From the NCBI GenBank assembly GCA_947305005.1, contig CAMZCM010000003.1, positions 1 through 64,000 on the forward strand: a stretch of DNA of 64,000 nt, written 5' to 3'. Shown piece after piece: positions 4,068-60,183 of the stretch. The translations under genes were made by a program, and so were the position numbers. Source of the stretch: an uncultured Prevotellaceae bacterium (GTDB lineage Bacteria > Bacteroidota > Bacteroidia > Bacteroidales > Bacteroidaceae). Each line of letters begins with the position of its first letter. The stretch's first letter is position 1. Under the pieces are notes generated by a model that did no database searches, was not told the origin of the DNA, and saw only the letters and a program-made list of their open reading frames with translations.

Positions 4068-5114
4068 TTAGTAACCTATAATAATACGTAGTCCTTTTTT
4101 ATTGAGCCAAGGCAACCTGTCAACTAACCAACAAACCGCCAAGGGGAACAGCAGCCCCCCTATGAACATACCTGCCACCACAACCGAATAATGCATCTGC
4201 AGAACGTTCACCAAGACCACTTTTGCGATATAGTGGCCAAACCAAGAAAGGAGATAGATGGTGTAAGTCTTGTTGGAGAACTTCATCATCCACTCTTCTA
4301 ACCGAGGCAGATGCTGTATGATAAGGTCGCATAAGCTCAAAGAAAATAGTATTCCGATAATTGCTCTAATAACATTCACGTACAAACCATGTAACGGAAG
4401 GAATATACATCCTATTGTAAGAGCAAGGTAAATTATACATTTCTGCCCCCCCCAGTTTGTGGCAGAATAAACTACCTTTAGCTTTTCTTCATTGCGCTGG
4501 AGCAATATACCCAATATGAAAAAAGGGACATAATATATTACTGCTGACAGGTTGAACACACGAGTAGCAGGCATGAAATAAGATACAACCCATATACTCA
4601 ACGCTAACAGGCACAACTTAACCTTATCCGCAGATAATAGTCGAATGCATATCAGACCTAACACCAATAAGAATATCATGTAGAGCGTGAACACATACCA
4701 GAGATGTCCAATGGTACTATAATCCGCACTCGGAATGATAAACATCTTGAAGAAATTCCCTACCGAAAACACCCTGTCCGCATGCGAGAGACCCGCAAAG
4801 GCGTACTTGATGGCGAAGATGACTGAACCTAACACCACGTATGGCACTATCAATCTCAGAGTTTTCTTCCAAATGAACTTGCCCGTACAGGCTTTCTTCA
4901 TTACAGGGTTTGTCAGAGAGAACAGGAAACCCGAGATCAAGAAAAACAGTGGCATGTGGAAAGAGTATATCCACGAATGCAGATACGACAGTTTCTGTTG
5001 GATTATAGGTTCCTCAAATCCGCTGTGGCCTAATACTACCAAGAGTATGCCCCAGACGGAAAGAAGTGCCATTACATGGTTAGACTTTGCCATGTTTGAA
5101 TCAATTCTTTCCAA
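4068..5114 (-). CDS. Acyltransferase family 3 (OafA/YrhL type) membrane protein
   Basis: Multi-TM; GILLVVLGHSGFEEP and FHMPLFFLISGFLFS motifs; contains an in-frame G8 tract. Confidence 0.8.
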   Translation of the reverse strand: MERIDSNMAKSNHVMALLSVWGILLVVLGHSGFEEPIIQQKLSYLHSWIYSFHMPLFFLISGFLFSLTNPVMKKACTGKFIWKKTLRLIVPYVVLGSVIFAIKYAFAGLSHADRVFSVGNFFKMFIIPSADYSTIGHLWYVFTLYMIFLLVLGLICIRLLSADKVKLCLLALSIWVVSYFMPATRVFNLSAVIYYVPFFILGILLQRNEEKLKVVYSATNWGGQKCIIYLALTIGCIFLPLHGLYVNVIRAIIGILFSLSLCDLIIQHLPRLEEWMMKFSNKTYTIYLLSWFGHYIAKVVLVNVLQMHYSVVVAGMFIGGLLFPLAVCWLVDRLPWLNKKGLRIIIGY

Positions 5115-20726: not shown

Positions 20727-21689
20727 TTAATGATAATTCTTGTTGATTTTATATTTTGTCCATTTAAAAAGCAATACTGGACTATTGAATATAAATCTTA
20801 TTAGCGCATTGAGAAAAGGCGAACAGCTATAATGAAGGACAACCTTTGCAACATCCAAAGCTTCCTTGTCACGTTTTAGGATATAGGGCATTTTAGCATA
20901 TAGAATTTTTTCGGCCCTATTGTTCATTATTTTTATTGAGGCAGACTCACCAGAAACTTTTGCAAACTCATACTCGGCTTTCAAGAAAGTCGAAGATGAG
21001 ACTCGGCGTGAAATCCCCCCCTCGTTTTTTCGATATACAGACAAACATTCAGACAACCCATAAACCTTTCCTAAACATGTAGCAGCAATGAAAAGACAAA
21101 CTCCGAAGCTCTTAATTTTAATTAAATCCTTATATATTGGTGAATCATATATTTCTTTTCTAAACAAAACAGATGCATAAGGCAATTGCCATTTTTCAAA
21201 AATAAGCTTAGTGTCAAAATCTCCTGACGAAAAATTACTCATGATAAAATCGGGCTGTTTATGATTATCAAAACGTACAATAGCATTATGAAAATGCATC
21301 ATATAATCTGGATGAGAATCAAGGAAATCCACCTGCCGTTGTAACTTGTAATCATCAATCCAATAATCATCACCTTCGCATATTGCAATGTATTGAGCAC
21401 GATCTTGCCATGGTTTAATATACTTAATTTTCTCAGGGTTTCTATACATATTCACAGGAAGATAAATACCTTTAATAATATCAGGATATTCCTTCTCATA
21501 TCTTTTGATGATTTCCGTTGTCCCATCCGTAGAACAATCATCAACAACAAGTGCACAAAAAGGGAAATTGGTTTTTTGACGAACAAACCCCTTTAACGCA
21601 TCTTCTATATACTTTTCTTGATTATATGTCAAGCATTTTACAAGAACCTTATAATCCCGATTAGGAATCGGAAAAAAATCACTATTCAT
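20727..21689 (-). CDS. Glycosyltransferase family 2
   Basis: VLVKCLTYNQEKYIEDALKGFVRQKTNFPF; YIAICEGDDYWIDDYKLQRQVDFLDSHPDY. Confidence 0.9.
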   Translation of the reverse strand: MNSDFFPIPNRDYKVLVKCLTYNQEKYIEDALKGFVRQKTNFPFCALVVDDCSTDGTTEIIKRYEKEYPDIIKGIYLPVNMYRNPEKIKYIKPWQDRAQYIAICEGDDYWIDDYKLQRQVDFLDSHPDYMMHFHNAIVRFDNHKQPDFIMSNFSSGDFDTKLIFEKWQLPYASVLFRKEIYDSPIYKDLIKIKSFGVCLFIAATCLGKVYGLSECLSVYRKNEGGISRRVSSSTFLKAEYEFAKVSGESASIKIMNNRAEKILYAKMPYILKRDKEALDVAKVVLHYSCSPFLNALIRFIFNSPVLLFKWTKYKINKNYH

Positions 21690-23125
21690 TATTTCCTATT
21701 TAATAAAAACAATACTTCTTCTATTTCCTGGAACTTAAACAAATAGGCTCCACCGATATATATAATTGCTCCGACTGCTGTGCCTACTACTATTTGAAGG
21801 AACAAGCTCGGAATCAAATAAGATATACCCAGAACAGACACAAACATCATCAATCCTAAACAAATGATTGGCAAGAGGTCTTTCATTTGTTCTTTGAATC
21901 CAAAACCATAGAATTTCCCAGTGTACCACGTATTTATATATACACTAACGATAGAAGAGACTATACCAGCTGCACAAAAAACAACTAATCCAAATGGTAA
22001 TGAACAGCATAAAACTAGCAGTCCCCATCCTTTTTTTATAAATTCAAGTTTAAGAAACAAATCCGTTCGCCCACATACTGTCAAAATATTTAAGTTAAGC
22101 GCATGTACAGGATACCACATCATTGAAAAACAGATGAGTTGTAGCAAAATTACGCAATCTATCCACTTTTCAGTAATCATAGTAATTATTAAAGGTCTTG
22201 CAAGGGCAGACATAAGCATCATAATCGGAAAAACGACAAATGCCGATACTTTTATCATTGTCCGATAATGAATAATAAGTCTCTCTGTATCATTTTGGAG
22301 TTTGCTAAGTACAGGAAAGGATACTTCTCTAACCACGCTATGAATCTGTTGAGAAGGCATGGCTGCATATTGTCTTGCTCGATTATATACACCAAGGTCA
22401 GCAGTGCTAAAAAATTTCCCTACAATTATCGGAGTAATATTACGATAGATTGTATCCAACAACGCAGAGGCCATCATTTTATTTCCGAAACCCCATAAAT
22501 ATGAAAATGATTCTTTCGCCCATCCGGTTTTAGGGAGCCATCTAACGATGCTCATCGTAATAACCAATCCAACAACTGTTGCAAACAATCCAGAAAGGAC
22601 TAAAGCCCATACGCCATAGCCATAATAAGCTAATGATATACCGACAACCCCTGATAGAATTTTTACAACGACAGAGATTTTGGCAGGCGTTTTAAAATCC
22701 AATTTTCTTTTTAATAGAACGTTTTGCGGCGTTCCGATTGGTGTAATCAGAAAAGTAAGTGCTGTCACACGCATCAATGGTCTTAAGACTGGTGTGTTAT
22801 AGAAATCGGCTATCCATGGTGAGGCAAAGAACAATATAACATAACACAATGTCCCTACGCCCAAGCTATACAAGAACGTCGTAGATAAGTCCTCTTCTTT
22901 CAATTCAGGTTTTCTCACCAAGGCATCTGAAAAACCCGCACTTGTAAAAACAGCGGCAATAGCGATGAAAACGGAGGGAAGTGCTGTTATTCCATAATCA
23001 GAAGGAGACAACAATCGAGCCAAAATGATACCTATGACGAATTGAACGCCATAATTGGAAAACTGCTCTGCAAACTTCCAATATAGTCCTCGTTTTGTTT
23101 TCTGTTTTAAAGAGTTTTCTGCCAT
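21689..23125 (-). CDS. Lipopolysaccharide/O-unit flippase (Wzx/MOP superfamily)
   Basis: Multi-TM; LKQKTKRGLYWKFAEQFSNYGVQFVIGIILARLLSPSDYGITALPSVFIAIAAVF. Confidence 0.9.
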   Translation of the reverse strand: MAENSLKQKTKRGLYWKFAEQFSNYGVQFVIGIILARLLSPSDYGITALPSVFIAIAAVFTSAGFSDALVRKPELKEEDLSTTFLYSLGVGTLCYVILFFASPWIADFYNTPVLRPLMRVTALTFLITPIGTPQNVLLKRKLDFKTPAKISVVVKILSGVVGISLAYYGYGVWALVLSGLFATVVGLVITMSIVRWLPKTGWAKESFSYLWGFGNKMMASALLDTIYRNITPIIVGKFFSTADLGVYNRARQYAAMPSQQIHSVVREVSFPVLSKLQNDTERLIIHYRTMIKVSAFVVFPIMMLMSALARPLIITMITEKWIDCVILLQLICFSMMWYPVHALNLNILTVCGRTDLFLKLEFIKKGWGLLVLCCSLPFGLVVFCAAGIVSSIVSVYINTWYTGKFYGFGFKEQMKDLLPIICLGLMMFVSVLGISYLIPSLFLQIVVGTAVGAIIYIGGAYLFKFQEIEEVLFLLNRK

Positions 23126-33761: not shown

Positions 33762-34913
33762 TCACTGTTTTTTTCTTATTAATTTATTAATCCAACTATC
33801 AGCCTTTTCAGCCATTTTTCTATCAAACCAACTAAGGAAGTATTTTTCAATTGAGGCAATGCGAAGCTGATCTATCAGATTACATATAACAAAAATCAAT
33901 GCAACGATGCCAATACAATATAAAACCAATTCTCCAAAAGGCAACGAATAATGTCCAACTGCATCAACCGTATCTTTCCATAACCACGTCCTCATGGCAG
34001 AAGAATTGGCATGTATCAGCAATACGCCAAAAGTACCTGCACCAAAAGCATTAATGATTTGGCTGTATTTTATATTCATATTTTTGAACCATAGGAAAGA
34101 ACAAACTGCTACTGCTACAGCAAAGAGTTTATTGCAATCAGACACAAAATGATAACGGAATCTGAATATGCTCAGCAATACCAATAACACACTTAACAAA
34201 GTCATATATCCCCATAGTTTCTTTCTATCAAATATAGGATTAGGATACATACGGATATAAGAAGCGATAAAATAGATAATACCAAACCATACGACGTAAT
34301 TGAAAGTAACATTAAATGATGGTATACTACCAAGTATTGTATACAACGTTAACATCAATATCAACAACAATTCATGCTGTCGCTTATTCATATTATGTAC
34401 CAAAATATTCAAGAAAGGAATAGTCAGCCAAAAAACAACAAAGCAACCTATAAAATTTTCACGTAAACCCCATACTGGCATAATAATTCTAACAAGGCGT
34501 TCGGCAGAAAATGTTTCATAACCTGCTATTAGTAAAATTGGATAGAGAAGTAATCTATATAGATAAATCTGCCCCATCAACTTTATAAATTTCCTTAGGG
34601 TAATTTTGCTAGTACACATAAAGTACCCTGTTATCATCAGAAAACAATTGATGCCTGTTTTACCCCATGCACCAAAAAATAAAAGAAATATACTATTTAA
34701 TGTTGTTGGATTTGTCCATAATGGACTATCGACTGCCCATAATCCGCTATTGACAACATAATGATGCGCAACAATCATTATCATACAGATAATACGATAC
34801 AACTCAAGATTGCTAGTTCGGGGTTGCTTGACAGCAACAGACGCCCCTTGGCGCTTAGCCAATAAGGGAGAGGTTTTATTTTCAAATAACTGGAATTTTT
34901 GTTCTTTCATCAT
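33762..34913 (-). CDS. Acyltransferase family 3 membrane protein
   Basis: Multi-[45 protein letters not shown]. Confidence 0.8.
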
Positions 34914-36015: not shown

Positions 36016-37284
36016 TTATAGTCTGCCGTCCACTATGCTGCGGTCAAGGGTACACTTCACATCGAAAATGACATGCTTGTCTTTGAGAAGGCCTTCTACA
36101 TTGAGAGCGTCAAACTTCTTGTGTGCCACGGCAGCAATGGCTGCATCAAACTTCTGTGCAGGTAGTTCATTCACTACCTTGATACCATATTCATGTTCCA
36201 CAATAGCTGGATTTGCCCAAGGATCAAACACGGTAATATTGAGGTTGTACTCCTTCAATGCCTTATAGATGTCAATGACTTTCGTATTACGCACATCGGG
36301 GCAATTTTCCTTAAAGGTAAAACCAAGTATGATGATATTGGAATTCAATACCTGAATGCCCTTCTTCAGCATCAGCTTGATAGTCTCAGTTGCTACATAC
36401 TCACCCATACCGTCGTTCATACGACGACCAGCAAGGATAATTTCAGGATTGTAACCATGACGCTGAGCGCACTGAGCGAGATAATAAGGGTCTACACCAA
36501 TGCAGTGACCACCAACAAGTCCTGGACGGAAAGGAAGGAAATTCCACTTCGTACCAGCAGCCTCCAACACATCGAGGGTGTCAATACCCATCTTATTGAA
36601 GATCTTAGATAGCTCGTTCACAAATGCGATGTTAATATCACGCTGGCTGTTCTCAATCACCTTAGCGGCTTCTGCTACTTTGATAGTAGGTGCAAGGTGG
36701 GTACCAGCAGTAATCACACTGGAGTAAACCTCGTTGATGTACTTACCAATCTCAGGAGTTGAACCAGAAGTTACTTTCTTAATGTGCTCTACAGTGTGCT
36801 GCTTGTCCCCCGGGTTGATACGCTCAGGAGAGTAACCACCGTAGAAATCAACATTCATCTTCAGACCAGAAACCTTCTCCACGACTGGGATACACTCATC
36901 CTCTGTTACGCCAGGATAAACGGTAGATTCATAAACTACCACATCACCCTTGCTGATAACCTTACCAACAGTGGTAGATGCGCCTACCAGAGGAGTAAGG
37001 TCTGGATTGTTGTCATCATCAACAGGCGTAGGTACAGCCACGACGTAGAAGTTACAATCCTTAATCTTCTCAATGTCGCTTGTACATATGAAACCGTGGT
37101 TGTTAATAGCATCCTGCAGGATGTCATCTGCAACCTCTAAAGTTGCATCATGTCCAGCCATCAGCGCATCGCAACGCTTCTGGTTCATGTCAAATCCCAC
37201 TGTGGGGTATTTTGTTGAAAACAAACGGGCAAGAGGAAGACCTACATAGCCCAAACCAATAACACAAATTTTAGTCTCTTTCAT
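36016..37284 (-). CDS. UDP-N-acetyl-hexosamine 6-dehydrogenase (WbpO/TviB-like)
   Basis: KICVIGLGYVGLPLARLFSTKYPTVGFD; GGYSPERINPGDKQHTVEHIKKVTSG; RPGLVGGHCIGVDPYYL. Confidence 0.9.
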   Translation of the reverse strand: MKETKICVIGLGYVGLPLARLFSTKYPTVGFDMNQKRCDALMAGHDATLEVADDILQDAINNHGFICTSDIEKIKDCNFYVVAVPTPVDDDNNPDLTPLVGASTTVGKVISKGDVVVYESTVYPGVTEDECIPVVEKVSGLKMNVDFYGGYSPERINPGDKQHTVEHIKKVTSGSTPEIGKYINEVYSSVITAGTHLAPTIKVAEAAKVIENSQRDINIAFVNELSKIFNKMGIDTLDVLEAAGTKWNFLPFRPGLVGGHCIGVDPYYLAQCAQRHGYNPEIILAGRRMNDGMGEYVATETIKLMLKKGIQVLNSNIIILGFTFKENCPDVRNTKVIDIYKALKEYNLNITVFDPWANPAIVEHEYGIKVVNELPAQKFDAAIAAVAHKKFDALNVEGLLKDKHVIFDVKCTLDRSIVDGRL

Positions 37285-37328: not shown

Positions 37329-38249
37329 CTACAACTCAGGTTGAAGTTTGATAATATCTCGCAGCATTAATGAAGTATACTGGCGAGCTCCTTCATCATT
37401 TAAATGCGTTGGATCTTGGAAATAATCCCTATTATTAGATATCTCTTTTGCATTGCAATAATATAAAAACGGTACTTTGTATTGTTCACATAAGTTCATT
37501 ATCGAAGAGTAATATGACGGGATAGAACTTCCTTTGTATTTGGGTGAAACGCAACAAAAAACCGCGATTCCCTTCTGTTTCGCCAACATAATGAATTGCT
37601 CAAAATAATGCATTTTGATACTATCAATATGCTTTTCAGTGCCAATGTCAGATTTTTCAATCTTGGGTTCCCAATTCATTGTGTTGTATAGTGGCATATA
37701 TCCTTTGGGATAAGTCGTAATCGGGTGAAAATAATTACCTAAGACTCTCAAGCAAGTAGTATTAAAGCGATACAGGTTTGAACACATCATCAATCTCGTC
37801 TTTGGCTCAATTGACCAAAACAATGAATCTATACCGGTTTCGTGATAGTATGGCTTTAAATAATTTAAATACTTAACATTATCATCTTCATAAATATCAT
37901 AATCTGAGATATCATATATTATAACTTTCGGCTCGTAACGAGATGTTATCATTCTTAGGAAACCATAACTCAAGATTATTCCATTACCATCCTCACCTGT
38001 GTTATAACATGAAAGGCCTAACGAATCTTCAATTATTTCTGGGACATAATGGTGTTTCGCTCTTGATGACCCAAATATCAGGACATCTTCGTTGGATTGT
38101 TTGCATACATAATAGCGACTCCTGATTCCTCCACCTTTGGAGTGGTCATTAAGATACTGACAAACGATACCCCACGTAATATCAATCGCAATAATGGCCA
38201 AGAAGAATAATAGCAAATTCCTAATGAATATCTTCATATCATGCCCCAT
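37329..38249 (-). CDS. SGNH-like exported protein, probable partner of the adjacent MBOAT
   Basis: N-terminal TM; LIFGSSRAKHHYVPEIIEDSLGLSCYNTGEDGNG (Ser block) and DPTHLNDEGARQYTSLM (Asp-His block). Confidence 0.6.
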   Translation of the reverse strand: MGHDMKIFIRNLLLFFLAIIAIDITWGIVCQYLNDHSKGGGIRSRYYVCKQSNEDVLIFGSSRAKHHYVPEIIEDSLGLSCYNTGEDGNGIILSYGFLRMITSRYEPKVIIYDISDYDIYEDDNVKYLNYLKPYYHETGIDSLFWSIEPKTRLMMCSNLYRFNTTCLRVLGNYFHPITTYPKGYMPLYNTMNWEPKIEKSDIGTEKHIDSIKMHYFEQFIMLAKQKGIAVFCCVSPKYKGSSIPSYYSSIMNLCEQYKVPFLYYCNAKEISNNRDYFQDPTHLNDEGARQYTSLMLRDIIKLQPEL

Positions 38250-39681
38250 TTAAAAACTAACATATATAAACTGACCACTATCCAAGACTCCTAATGTCAA
38301 TACCATACTAAACAATAAAACATAAATACACCATCGAGTAACTTTGTTACTCAAGAATCTGAGCCTGGCACTGAGATATTCGTCTTTTATATCTTTGAAT
38401 AATAGCATCAGAAGTCCTGTAACTATGATAATAAGTTTATCAAATTCTAAAGCGGCCAATCCTGCGGTTCCTTCTGAAGAAAACATCTGTCCTATAAGAC
38501 CAATGGACTCACTAATGTTTGGCATTCTAAAAAACACCCAAGCAACGTTAACAAGCAAGAACGTAATACCTATCCTTATGACTTTAACTGTCCAGTTATG
38601 CCCTTCATACTTTTGCCATCCCAATGCCTTTTCAACAATCTGGAATACGCCATGCATACAACCCCAAACAATAAACGTCCAGTTGGCACCGTGCCAGATG
38701 CCGCTCACAAGGAAGGTGATAAATATGTTCCAATAGGTTCTGGCCTTACTGCAACGGCTACCGCCAAGAGGTATATAGACCTGCTGTGTGAGCCATCGTG
38801 TCAAAGATATATGCCATCTACGCCAAAAGTCCGTGATACTGACTGCAAGGTATGGCCTGCGGAAGTTATTTATCAAGTTAAAGCCCAATGTAGCTGCAAT
38901 GCCTATTGCCATAAGCGAGTAGCCAGCAAAGTCACAGTAAATCTGCAAAGTGTAGAAAATGCTAGCCACAAAACAGGTTAAGCCATTGTAATGAATATAG
39001 TTGGCATATACGGTATCCACGAACAGCCCCAAACGGTCTGCTATGACCAGTTTGATAAACATACCCCAAAGGAGCCATTTCAAGCCCTGCCTGGCCTGAT
39101 CGTAATCAAATTTGTGTGGGTTCTTAATCTGAGGTAGCAATTCATCTGCCTTGCTAATAGGACCGGACATCACCTGTGGGAAAAATGACACAAATAAGAG
39201 GTAATCCAACAGATTCTTCTCAGCCTTTACCCGTCCATGATACACATCTAGCATATAACCTACGGCCTGAAATGTGAAGAATGAGATTCCAACTGGTATA
39301 GCCCAATTCAAACCAGGTAAAGCAAACTGCAATCCTACAGAAGCAAGACCATCACTAATGCAGTCATTAAGGAAGTTGTAATACTTGAAAACCAGCAATG
39401 GCAGTAACCCAAGCAGTGCAAAAAGCCAAACTAAATGCTTCCTTTTAGAACCTTGAACCTTGGAACCTACATCCTTTTCCAAAATTTGCCCCCCCCCAGT
39501 ACGTCACTAACGTGACTCCTAAAAGCACCAAGGCATAGCTCGGTTTCCAATTCATATAAAGCAAGTAGCTCACTACAAGAAGCAATGCCTTGCGCCATGT
39601 ATTCCACTTGACCGGAATTAGCCAATAGAACACAAAAATAAGCGGAAATATGAGCCAGAAATTAAAGGAGGTAAAGGACAT
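38250..39681 (-). pseudogene. MBOAT-family O-acyltransferase split by a frameshift at a G9 homopolymer (possible phase-variable OFF state)
   Basis: ORF 39445-39681 (WLIFPLIFVFYWLIPVKWNTWRKALLLVVSYLLYMNWKP...TYWGG) and ORF 38250-39482 (KHLVWLFALLGLLPLLVFKYYNFL...WHGANWTFIVWG) meet at 39489-39497. Eight Gs instead of nine would join them. Confidence 0.85.
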
Positions 39682-39689
39682 GATTACAA

Positions 39690-40664
39690 TTAGAGATTAG
39701 CTTTATACCATTCGATTGCCTCGTTAAGTCCCCGAGCAAAATCATATTGCGGGTCGTAGCCTAACAGACGTTTAGCCTTGCTGATGTCTGCATTCGAGTG
39801 CTTGATGTCACCCTTACGGTCAGGACCATAGATTGGTTCAATGTCCTTTCCCAATGCTTTTACAAGGGTCTTATAGATATCATTCAGATATTCACGACCA
39901 CCGTAAGCTACATTGAAAGCTTCGCCACTTGCCTCATCTGGGGCAAGACATGCCTTTAAGTTAGCTTCGATGACATTCTCAATATAGGTAAAGTCACGAC
40001 TCTGCTGACCGTCACCGTTGATAGTGGGGCGCTCATCATTCAGAAGCTGTTTGATGAACTTTGGTAATACAGCTGCATAAGCACCATTGGGATCTTGGCG
40101 ACGACCGAAGACGTTGAAATAGCGCAGGCCAATGGTCTTTAAGCCATAATGTTTGGTGTACTGCTTTGCCCATTCTTCGTCGCAACGCTTGGTAAGTGCG
40201 TAAGGGCTCAGAAGATTTCCTTCTATACCTTCCTGCTTGGGCAGGTGAGCTTCATCACCATAAACGCTACTTGAAGAAGCATAGACGAAAGTCTTCACCC
40301 CGTTTTGACGTGCAGCCTCCATCATGTTCAGTGTTCCCTGAATATTGTTAGCACAATAGAACAAAGGCATTTCAATGCTACGGGGGACACTTCCCCATGC
40401 AGCCTCATTCAGAACATAGTCAACATCCTTACAGGCGGCCATACAAGTATATAAATCCTTGATATCACCTTTCAGGAAGGTATAATTAGGATTATCCTTG
40501 AATAAATCCACATTGGCCTGTTTTCCTGTACTCAGGTCATCCAAGCAACGCACACGATAGCCCATCTTCAAGATGGCCTCACAAAGATTGGAGCCAATGA
40601 AACCTGCTCCACCGGTAACAAGGAACAAACTGTCCTTCGGAAATTGTAATTCTGTGTATAACAT
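39690..40664 (-). CDS. NAD-dependent epimerase, UDP-GlcNAc 4-epimerase (WbpP/TviC-like)
   Basis: FLVTGGAGFIGSNLCEAILKMGYRVRCLDDLSTGK; EAAWGSVPRSIEMP; SSSVYGDEAHLPKQE; SPYALTKRCDEEWAKQY. Confidence 0.9.
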   Translation of the reverse strand: MLYTELQFPKDSLFLVTGGAGFIGSNLCEAILKMGYRVRCLDDLSTGKQANVDLFKDNPNYTFLKGDIKDLYTCMAACKDVDYVLNEAAWGSVPRSIEMPLFYCANNIQGTLNMMEAARQNGVKTFVYASSSSVYGDEAHLPKQEGIEGNLLSPYALTKRCDEEWAKQYTKHYGLKTIGLRYFNVFGRRQDPNGAYAAVLPKFIKQLLNDERPTINGDGQQSRDFTYIENVIEANLKACLAPDEASGEAFNVAYGGREYLNDIYKTLVKALGKDIEPIYGPDRKGDIKHSNADISKAKRLLGYDPQYDFARGLNEAIEWYKANL

Positions 40665-41855: not shown

Positions 41856-43085
41856 TTACATTTTTTGGTCGAGGTTTCGACCTTTCTCTTCATGCTCGAA
41901 GTTCGGGATGAACTCCTTGATAGCCTCAACCACCTGTGCCTTGGTGAAGTCCTCCTTCTGGAAGATGCCTTCCAACTTCTCGAAGAACCCGTTCACCTCA
42001 GCCATTTCATGGCGAGTGGTCTGGCAGACCACACCCAGGGCAGCGAAGCGCTGCATGTCGATTTTCTCTCCAGGAACGAAAAACTCTTCAAAAGACTTCT
42101 CCCCCGTCGTATCGCTTGTGAAATACCTTACTGGATATTTCACGGTTTCAGGTTTCAGAGTTTCAAGTTTCAGGTTGGAGGCCTTAACCTTAGCCTCATC
42201 ATCGCTAGAGCACGGATCTTTCTCCAGTCCATTGGCCGTCACGAACTTGTCGCAGATCGAAGAGAACGTCAGCATCTGGTCTTCGCCCAACTTCGGGAAG
42301 AACACTTCGCCCCCATTGCCCAGAATACAAGCCAGCATACATATCTGACCGCTCTCCTCGGGCGAAACAAAGTAACGCTTCACATCGCTTGGTGCAGCCA
42401 GCGGCTGCTTCTTCTGCAAGCGATGAATCCATCCGTCAGGCAGCGAACCGTTGCTGAAGGCCACGTTCGCAAAGCGAGCAGTTGTCACCTTAAAGTACTT
42501 GTTGTAAGCCATCACCAAGTCCTCCATGATGCGCTTGGATGCTCCCATAATATTCACAGGATTTGCAGCCTTATCCGTACTTACGCAGAAGAAATGCTTG
42601 GGAGGATAGACTGTCAGCAAGTCCATCAACCTCTTGGCCTTGATGTCGTTATTCTCGATCAGTGCCTGCACACTATACCTATCCTTCTCCGAGCGCACAT
42701 GCTTATGAGCAGAGAAATTTGCCACAATATCAAATCCCTCTTCCTCGCGGAAGATGCGCTCAAAGATAGGATCTGCAAAGTTCAACGTGTAGCAACGGAA
42801 CTCATCCGGAACGAACAAGCCCTGAGTAGAGCGCACATCACGCACCAGTTCTGCCAGTCCGTTCTCGTTGAGGTCAACGACCACTACGCTTTGGGGTTTG
42901 AACCGCAAGATGGCCTTGATGAAGCTGGAGCCAATGGAACCTGCCCCACCAATCACGCATACCTTCTTACCCTTGATTTCCTTGGAAAGCGTCTCTTTGT
43001 TCGCCTGGATGTCCGGCTCAAACATACTGACAGGGCGGAAAGTTACACTGTCAGCAATAAATTTATCTAAATTAAACATACTCAA
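41856..43085 (-). CDS. Polysaccharide biosynthesis protein, CapD-like UDP-GlcNAc 4,6-dehydratase
   Basis: KKVCVIGGAGSIGSSFIKAILRFKPQSVVVVDLNENGLAELVRDVRS; FSAHKHVRSEKD; VSTDKAANPVNIMGASKRIMEDL. Confidence 0.9.
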   Translation of the reverse strand: MSMFNLDKFIADSVTFRPVSMFEPDIQANKETLSKEIKGKKVCVIGGAGSIGSSFIKAILRFKPQSVVVVDLNENGLAELVRDVRSTQGLFVPDEFRCYTLNFADPIFERIFREEEGFDIVANFSAHKHVRSEKDRYSVQALIENNDIKAKRLMDLLTVYPPKHFFCVSTDKAANPVNIMGASKRIMEDLVMAYNKYFKVTTARFANVAFSNGSLPDGWIHRLQKKQPLAAPSDVKRYFVSPEESGQICMLACILGNGGEVFFPKLGEDQMLTFSSICDKFVTANGLEKDPCSSDDEAKVKASNLKLETLKPETVKYPVRYFTSDTTGEKSFEEFFVPGEKIDMQRFAALGVVCQTTRHEMAEVNGFFEKLEGIFQKEDFTKAQVVEAIKEFIPNFEHEEKGRNLDQKM

Positions 43086-57809: not shown

Positions 57810-57884
57810 GGTGCGTTAGTTCAGTCTGGTTAGAATACATGCCTGTCACGCATGGGGTCACGGGTTCGAGCCCCGTACGCACCG
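57810..57884 (+). tRNA. tRNA-Asp (anticodon GTC)
   Basis: Cloverleaf readable: acceptor GGTGCGT/ACGCACC, anticodon loop CTGTCAC (GTC at 57845-57847), T-arm GGGTTCGAGCCCC. Confidence 0.95.
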
Positions 57885-58110
57885 CAAGAGCCTAGGGCTC
57901 TTTTTTGTTTATATAGGCTTTCACCCGTGACCCCATGGGTCAGAGTTCTTTCAACAAGTGAAAGCGACCGAAGGTCGAGCGCGAGCCCCGTACGCACCGC
58001 AAGAGCCTAGGGCTCTTTTTTGTTTATATAGGCTTTCACCCGTGACCCCATGGGTCAGAGTTCTTTCGACAAGCGAAAGCGACCAAAGGTCGAGCGCGAG
58101 CCCCGTACGC
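57868..58110 (+). repeat. 115-bp tandem repeat containing the tRNA-Asp 3' end and terminator (2 full copies plus 13 bp)
   Basis: GAGCCCCGTACGC at 57868, 57983 and 58098 (spacing exactly 115); copies nearly identical. Confidence 0.95.
57886..57906 (+). terminator. Rho-independent terminator after tRNA-Asp
   Basis: AAGAGCC TAG GGCTCTT followed by T tract; duplicated in the next 115-bp unit. Confidence 0.8.
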
Positions 58111-60183
58111 TCAATCATCTTCATCACCCAATTGGGCCATGAGGGAGAGCATTTGGTCACGAAGTTGAGCGGCAGTGATGAAGTCGAGGTCTTTGGCAGC
58201 TTTTTGCATCTGTCGGCGCAACAGATCAATGCGTTTACGTAGCTCATCGCGTGTCAGGTATTCCGCCTCCACCTCTGCCGCCATCGGCAACGAAGGTTCC
58301 GGCTCGATATATGCCCGTTTGTCACGTTCAGACATGTTCTCATGATTGGCAGCGATGAGGTCCGTCATGGTGCGATCCTTCATAATCTGTGTCGGCGTAA
58401 TCCCATGCTCCTCGTTGTAATGCAATTGTTTCTCCCGTCTGCGATTCGTTTCATCAATGGTCAGTTGCATGGACTCCGTGATTGTATCGCCATACATGAT
58501 GGCCTTGCCATGAATGTTACGGGCTGCACGGCCCACCGTCTGCGTCAAAGAACGATGGCTGCGCAGGAACCCCTCTTTATCCGCATCGAGGATGGCCACC
58601 AGCGAGACTTCTGGAAGATCCAAGCCCTCACGTAACAAGTTGACACCCACAAGCACATCAAACTTACCCGAGCGCAGGTCATCCATGATCTGCACCCGCT
58701 CCAAAGTATCCACATCACTATGGATGTAACGCGTCTGCACACCATGATTCACCAGGTATTCCGTCAGTTCCTCCGCCATACGCTTAGTGAGCGTCGTCAC
58801 CAGCACCCGTTCCTGCACCTCCACTCGCTGCTGAATCTCCTCCATGAGGTCATCCACCTGATTGGCTGTGGGGCGCACCTCGATGACTGGGTCCAACAAA
58901 CCGGTGGGTCGGATCACCTGCTCCACGATGATACCTTCACTCTGTGCCAGCTCATAATCCGCGGGGGTAGCGCTGACATAGATGACCTGATGCGTCAGGG
59001 CCTCAAACTCCTCGAATTTCAAAGGACGATTATCCATCGCTGCCGGTAAGCGGAAGCCATATTCAACGAGGTTCGTCTTGCGAGCCCGGTCACCGCCATA
59101 CATCGCTGATATCTGCGGCACGCTCACATGACTCTCATCGATAACCAACAGAAAATCCTCCGGGAAGAAATCCAAGAGGCAATAAGGGCGCGTACCTGCA
59201 GCACGTCCATCAAAATAGCGGCTATAATTCTCGATACCCGAGCAATGCCCCAACTCACGAATCATCTCCATATCATAGGTCACACGTTCGTAGAGTCGTT
59301 TGGCCTCCAACGGTTTACCTATCTCTTCGAAATACTTCACCCGGGCAGTGAGGTCATCCTCAATCTGATGAATGGCAATCTGTGTCTGTTCCTTCGTTGT
59401 CATGAACAGATTCGCCGGATAGATCATATAATCCTGAAACTCCCCGATACGAGCACCCGTCACTGTGTCCACCTCCTCAATGGCATCAATCTCATCATCC
59501 CAAAAGGTGACCCGTAGGAGGAAGTCAGAATAAGCCAAAAAGATATCCACGGTATCCCCTTTGACACGATACTCCCCTCGTCCGAGGCTGATATCATTGC
59601 GGGTATAGAGCGAATCGTTCAGGCGGCGCAGGAACACATTGCGATCCAGGATCTTACTGCGATGCAGTTCTATCACATTCTCATAGAAAGCTGCAGGATT
59701 ACCCATGCCATAGATACACGAGACAGAACTTACCACGATGACATCCTTTCGTCCTGACAACAACGCCGAAGTGGCTGCTAAACGCATCCTGTCGATCTCA
59801 TCGTTGATAGCCAAGTCCTTTTCGATGTAAGTATCGGTGGAAGGGATGTAAGCCTCAGGCTGGTAATAGTCATAATAACTGACATAATACTCCACCGCAT
59901 TCTGGGGAAAGAAAGCCTTCATCTCACCATACAGCTGAGCTGCTAATGTCTTGTTATGTGAGAGAATCAACGTAGGTTTTCCTACATTAGCAATCACATT
60001 GGCAACAGTAAATGTTTTTCCCGAACCTGTCACACCCAATAGCGTCTGTGCAGGCACCCCGCTAAGGATGCCTTGAGTGAGCTGATCAATCGCCTCTGGC
60101 TGATCGCCTGTCGGCTGATATTTGGAAGTGAGAATGAAGTCTGGCACGACAATAAAATACTTGGTTGGGGCACAAAGGTACAC
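58111..60183 (-). CDS. uvrB: Excinuclease ABC subunit B
   Basis: YQPTGDQPEAIDQLTQGI; LLGVTGSGKTFTVANVI; YYDYYQPEAYIPSTDTYIEKD; QTVGRAARN. Confidence 0.98.
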   Translation of the reverse strand: MYLCAPTKYFIVVPDFILTSKYQPTGDQPEAIDQLTQGILSGVPAQTLLGVTGSGKTFTVANVIANVGKPTLILSHNKTLAAQLYGEMKAFFPQNAVEYYVSYYDYYQPEAYIPSTDTYIEKDLAINDEIDRMRLAATSALLSGRKDVIVVSSVSCIYGMGNPAAFYENVIELHRSKILDRNVFLRRLNDSLYTRNDISLGRGEYRVKGDTVDIFLAYSDFLLRVTFWDDEIDAIEEVDTVTGARIGEFQDYMIYPANLFMTTKEQTQIAIHQIEDDLTARVKYFEEIGKPLEAKRLYERVTYDMEMIRELGHCSGIENYSRYFDGRAAGTRPYCLLDFFPEDFLLVIDESHVSVPQISAMYGGDRARKTNLVEYGFRLPAAMDNRPLKFEEFEALTHQVIYVSATPADYELAQSEGIIVEQVIRPTGLLDPVIEVRPTANQVDDLMEEIQQRVEVQERVLVTTLTKRMAEELTEYLVNHGVQTRYIHSDVDTLERVQIMDDLRSGKFDVLVGVNLLREGLDLPEVSLVAILDADKEGFLRSHRSLTQTVGRAARNIHGKAIMYGDTITESMQLTIDETNRRREKQLHYNEEHGITPTQIMKDRTMTDLIAANHENMSERDKRAYIEPEPSLPMAAEVEAEYLTRDELRKRIDLLRRQMQKAAKDLDFITAAQLRDQMLSLMAQLGDEDD

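Follow-up and report, generated by a model that had tools for sequence, protein, structure and literature searches.

Does the run of nine Gs that breaks an O-acyltransferase gene of the MBOAT family in an uncultured Prevotellaceae bacterium represent a switch, a fresh loss of function or an error of assembly? The gene lies on the minus strand of the window (the whole stretch of 64,000 nucleotides that was analysed), and the Gs, read directly from the sequence at 39489-39497 in the minus-strand context GTG ACG TAC TGG GGG GGG GCA AAT TTT GGA, fall in codons 62-64 of approximately 475. The frame opened by the ATG at 39681 meets a TAA stop about 15 codons past the tract, ending in YWGGANFGKGCRFQGSRF, and encodes an N-terminal piece of 78 aa (39445-39681, minus strand). 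The C-terminal piece of 410 aa (38250-39482, minus strand) is free of other lesions; the two open reading frames overlap, are one base out of register and are joined across the tract. The preliminary description had located the split and the early stop exactly, and the register with eight Gs, which it claimed to continue through the rest of the enzyme, does so (YWGGQILEK...). Between the tract and the premature stop lies an imperfect tandem repeat of the 7-bp unit AAGGTTC (39448-39468, minus strand, 2.8 copies). A change in its copy number would also shift the frame, as seven is not a multiple of three; it was rejected as a second switch, having just 2.8 imperfect copies and one other one-mismatch match in the genome, and its position beside the G run is probably incidental.

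The closest relative of the gene (G008:C45) is 75% identical and encodes one uninterrupted protein of 475 aa, the first ~65 residues of which align with the 78-aa piece. Since both halves are carried there as a single protein, the window contains one split gene, and two separate genes are excluded. The assembled allele, frameshifted at codons 62-64, does not specify the full-length membrane protein that is intact in G008. At the position of the tract the G008 gene reads TTTGGCGGACGC and has no G run; as this closest ortholog is without it, the tract is not a conserved switch. The N-terminal piece diverges from G008 with dN of 0.22 over 61 codons, and pN is 0.17-0.19 before and after the tract alike, against a near-saturated pS of ~0.8; unique departures at conserved columns number one in the window copy and one in G008. 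Low nonsynonymous divergence, 410 open codons and equal numbers of departures thus give no sign of decay. Unless the break is spurious, it is either recent or intermittent, which is how we take it because the rest of the gene is undamaged and as conserved as the ortholog.

The C-terminal piece matches the Pfam MBOAT family (PF03062) with an E-value of 7e-31 and 108 bits (curated cut-off 27), which agrees with the family first proposed for it, and matches solved DltB in a phmmer search (E 4e-27). The motif SGIWHGANW, of the WHG type with the conserved active-site His of the family, is present both in the window copy and in the G008 ortholog. The closest named relatives belong to Prevotellaceae, and the gene product probably decorates surface sugars. 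Directly downstream of its stop lies a gene for a protein of 306 aa with one N-terminal membrane-type helix (37329-38249, minus strand), and the same partner gene follows in G008. This partner has no Pfam or NCBIfam match, and a profile search from the sequence, taken by itself, gave nothing significant. In an alignment of 28 homologs from the equivalent position adjoining MBOAT genes, G60, S62 and H282 are invariant and D279 is near-invariant, and both the catalytic Ser block and the DxxH block of the SGNH/GDSL hydrolase superfamily are present. With an AlphaFold model of the partner (pLDDT 94), Foldseek returned probability 1.00 to TesA, GDSL esterases and PatB, a peptidoglycan O-acetyltransferase. 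The protein encoded at 37329-38249 is thus predicted to have the SGNH hydrolase fold, and the fold search bears out the SGNH-like label that it had been given from the sequence.

A detectable homolog of the partner adjoins the MBOAT gene in dozens of the loci compared, and this conserved MBOAT-SGNH cassette has the same layout as AlgI/AlgX and PatA/PatB. MBOAT systems of the AlgI/AlgX, PatA/PatB and DltB types use a separate SGNH protein (PMC9558356); the window pair shares this organization, the MBOAT matching DltB and the partner matching PatB by fold. The difference from DltB-type systems is that the window enzyme does not reach the DltB equivalog TIGR04091, staying far under its cut-off (166 vs 375 bits).

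The genes around the cassette form a surface-polysaccharide locus, as had been supposed, with a flippase, glycosyltransferases, nucleotide-sugar enzymes and two acyltransferase-3 (AT3) genes. A UDP-sugar epimerase/dehydratase-type SDR gene (39690-40664, minus strand) stands immediately upstream of the MBOAT gene and is probably in the same operon; a gene of the UDP-glucose/GDP-mannose dehydrogenase family (36016-37284, minus strand) lies downstream of the pair. A Wzx-type flippase (Polysacc_synt_3; 21689-23125, minus strand) is a marker of polysaccharide biosynthesis loci. One AT3 gene of the cluster is intact (33762-34913, minus strand); the second (4068-5114, minus strand) contains an in-frame run of eight Gs at 4446-4453 (TGG GGG GGG CAG), which shares the W-G-G-Q codon context with the MBOAT tract. 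A locus of this content is a typical place for homopolymer switches. A scan for promoters and terminators gave results near chance level.

The frame break is best explained by slippage at the tract, reversible phase variation of the enzyme is plausible, and we give about an even chance to the full proposal, in which changes in G-run length by slippage turn the MBOAT, and thereby the acylation of an exported glycan, on and off. The run would have arisen from W-G-G codons (TGG GGG GGG) and would slip during replication, so that the population would be a mixture of cells in the off state, as assembled, and in the on state. In on cells the MBOAT would transfer acyl groups through the membrane, and the SGNH protein would receive them and attach them to the glycan being exported. 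The glycan of off cells would lack these groups, and such cells may also translate the adjoining SGNH gene less. If this is true, single-base slippage switches surface-glycan acylation in an abundant gut and rumen lineage in which most of the switches known are invertible promoters, and recognition by phages and the immune system would probably be affected; if the allele is merely a fresh frameshift, the event is an ordinary one.

The tract itself is unremarkable. Of 100 dinucleotide-shuffled versions of the window, 17 had at least one G9/C9 run, and the genome contains three runs of nine or more bases, compared with approximately 0.7-9 expected under simple Markov models. As in a contingency locus, a long coding repeat close to the 5' end (G9, codons 62-64) sets the frame; the repeat is neither commoner than chance nor conserved in orthologs. 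What does not look like chance is the coincidence of the sole lesion with the run: G9 is the longest G/C run in the window, and the break falls there and at no other homopolymer. The window's 42 intact genes (50.4 kb) contain 15 homopolymers, each 7-8 bases long, and none of them breaks a gene. These 15 runs also indicate that the assembly is not generally prone to homopolymer errors, and they argue against an erroneous consensus, in which the true tract would be in frame and its Gs were miscounted in a metagenome assembly. Such an error is favoured by the fragmented state of the assembly, probably a MAG, with 40 contigs and 85.6% completeness, and by the behaviour of its long runs. All three runs of exactly eight bases in the genome, including that of the second AT3 gene, are in frame, whereas two of the three longer ones, the MBOAT G9 and a G11 in a gene for a GH95-like glycosidase, are out of frame, as miscounted long runs would give; the third, the G10 of a LeuA-like gene, keeps the frame. 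This pattern fits real slippage and miscounting alike, and on balance we consider a consensus error unlikely. The G11 run (G000:C7:21657-21667; L119, 1451-3939) splits the GH95-like gene into frames of 241 and 623 aa, and the best-matching relatives of this gene in the genus are intact, many of them ~820-880 aa long. A glycosidase is not an obvious target of phase variation, and the presence of the genome's other long split tract in it counts against a switch in the MBOAT gene, as do the chance-like frequency of runs of at least nine bases and the finding that most examined runs in the genus are intergenic or harmless to genes. The genome also has intact mutS and mutL, so single-base slippage should be lower, which is a further point against phase variation.

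The same observations (tract frequency equal to chance, mismatch repair present, an ortholog without the tract) speak for a recent loss of function, in which a single slip at an ordinary mutational hotspot produced an off allele that has risen in the lineage, leaving an incipient pseudogene. Loss could be tolerated, as a second MBOAT gene with a neighbouring SGNH gene is intact in the genome (G000:C5:134764-135963). Against it stand the 410 codons without another lesion, the intact partner and the lack of acceleration at conserved sites, which fit only a loss that happened very recently; we regard this alternative as possible and rather doubtful. Finally, some full-length enzyme could be made from the assembled allele by recoding, that is, by slippage of RNA polymerase or ribosomal frameshifting on G9. 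Long single-base runs are a classic substrate of transcriptional slippage, which is in favour of such recoding. A/T runs are mentioned in the context of transcriptional slippage in PMC3711429. Orthologs do not share the tract, however, and no strong stimulatory structure was found around it (fold z -1.5), so that recoding seems very improbable. Slippage of the G run as the cause of the break, proposed in the preliminary description, has gained circumstantial support from the undamaged downstream frame, from a second MBOAT gene broken at a run of nine and from the N-terminal position of all long G/C tracts in the MBOAT genes compared.

The latter two points come from a comparison of 161 distinct MBOAT homologs, of which three have G/C runs of at least eight bases: the window gene (G9), a gene in G068:C14 (C9) and one in G063 (G8, in frame). 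All three runs lie within the first 75 codons, which make up 15.5% of the gene length; the nominal chance of such N-terminal placement is ~0.004 for the three and 0.02 without the window gene, by a test devised after seeing the data. Only the two 9-mers break the frame N-terminally among the 161 homologs, and both affected genes stand upstream of an SGNH partner. The G068 gene (L025) is a non-orthologous MBOAT beside an SGNH gene, out of frame at C9 near its N-terminus. Its break and that in the window are independent events, as their positions (~codon 22 and ~codon 62, respectively) and bases differ. The G9, C9 and in-frame G8 tracts suggest, tentatively and with more doubt than confidence on our part, that MBOAT-SGNH cassettes of the genus have recurrently come under homopolymer control, which would make an independent slippage toggle of polysaccharide O-acylation in Bacteroidales. 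No alternative tract length was found: a search pattern with free tract length gave only the window's own allele in 399 genomes of the family (one per species) and IMG/VR, and the pattern was unmatched in a plasmid collection.

Runs of at least nine G/C bases were considered as a genus-wide mark of switchable genes and rejected, most of ~100 tracts being intergenic, at contig ends or in frame. Candidates for further split genes were also discarded; at L178, for example, the tract sits upstream of the start of an Mfa2-like gene, and at L212 it sits where an AT3 gene meets a flippase gene. In several assemblies of the genus poly-G occurs within ~15 bases of contig ends (e.g., G002:C80, G026:C55, and G068:C12), as would result from assemblies breaking where tracts vary in length or from an artefact of two-colour sequencing. 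The LeuA-like gene mentioned above (G000:C22; L120, 1153-2949), a metabolic gene, contains in-frame inserts with the G10 run, which resemble dispersed repeats of the LPDREGQGG type.

Bacteroidales are best known for switching by DNA inversion. The arrangement in the window resembles that of the contingency loci of Campylobacter, Helicobacter and Neisseria, where the reading frame depends on a G/C run within the 5' portion of a gene for surface modification; however, in those bacteria switching has been measured and runs are many, whereas the window offers one allele, a chance-like frequency of runs and the presence of mutS and mutL. O-acetyltransferases controlled by slippage are already known, and the window MBOAT is a candidate new case. 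The O-acetyltransferase of E. coli K1 is repeat-controlled and phase-variable, as cited in PMC3090145. The likeness lies in slippage that turns the O-acylation of a surface polysaccharide on and off, as proposed for the window, where an imperfect 7-bp repeat also stands beside the G run; the difference lies in the window's arrangement of MBOAT plus SGNH and in its repeat of just 2.8 imperfect copies. The PSI/9 acetyltransferase gene of Bacteroides fragilis is broken because a run of Cs is one base too long, for which slippage was proposed in 2010 (PMC3090145). There, too, an acyl/acetyltransferase gene of a Bacteroidales polysaccharide locus is frameshifted at a homopolymer, but the run has only 4 Cs and strains were compared (PMC3090145), whereas the window has a run of nine in one genome. 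The cps1 acyltransferase gene of Akkermansia, likewise in a capsule locus of a gut commensal, contains a long mononucleotide repeat for which slippage was suggested; this repeat is at the end of the gene and the demonstrated switch is an invertible element (PMC13343947), while the window run is near the 5' end. Literature searches that paired phase variation with MBOAT or Prevotella, made with limited coverage, turned up no description of the present case among the titles and abstracts listed.

Two other repeats were observed in the window. The 7-bp unit TTTCAGG occurs in 5.3 imperfect copies at 42138-42176, inside an open reading frame (41856-43085) of a presumed polysaccharide-biosynthesis gene. 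A 115-bp tandem repeat (57867-58110; 2.1 copies, 97% matches) adjoins the low-coordinate end of the open reading frame at 58111-60183, which is its 3' end on the minus strand.
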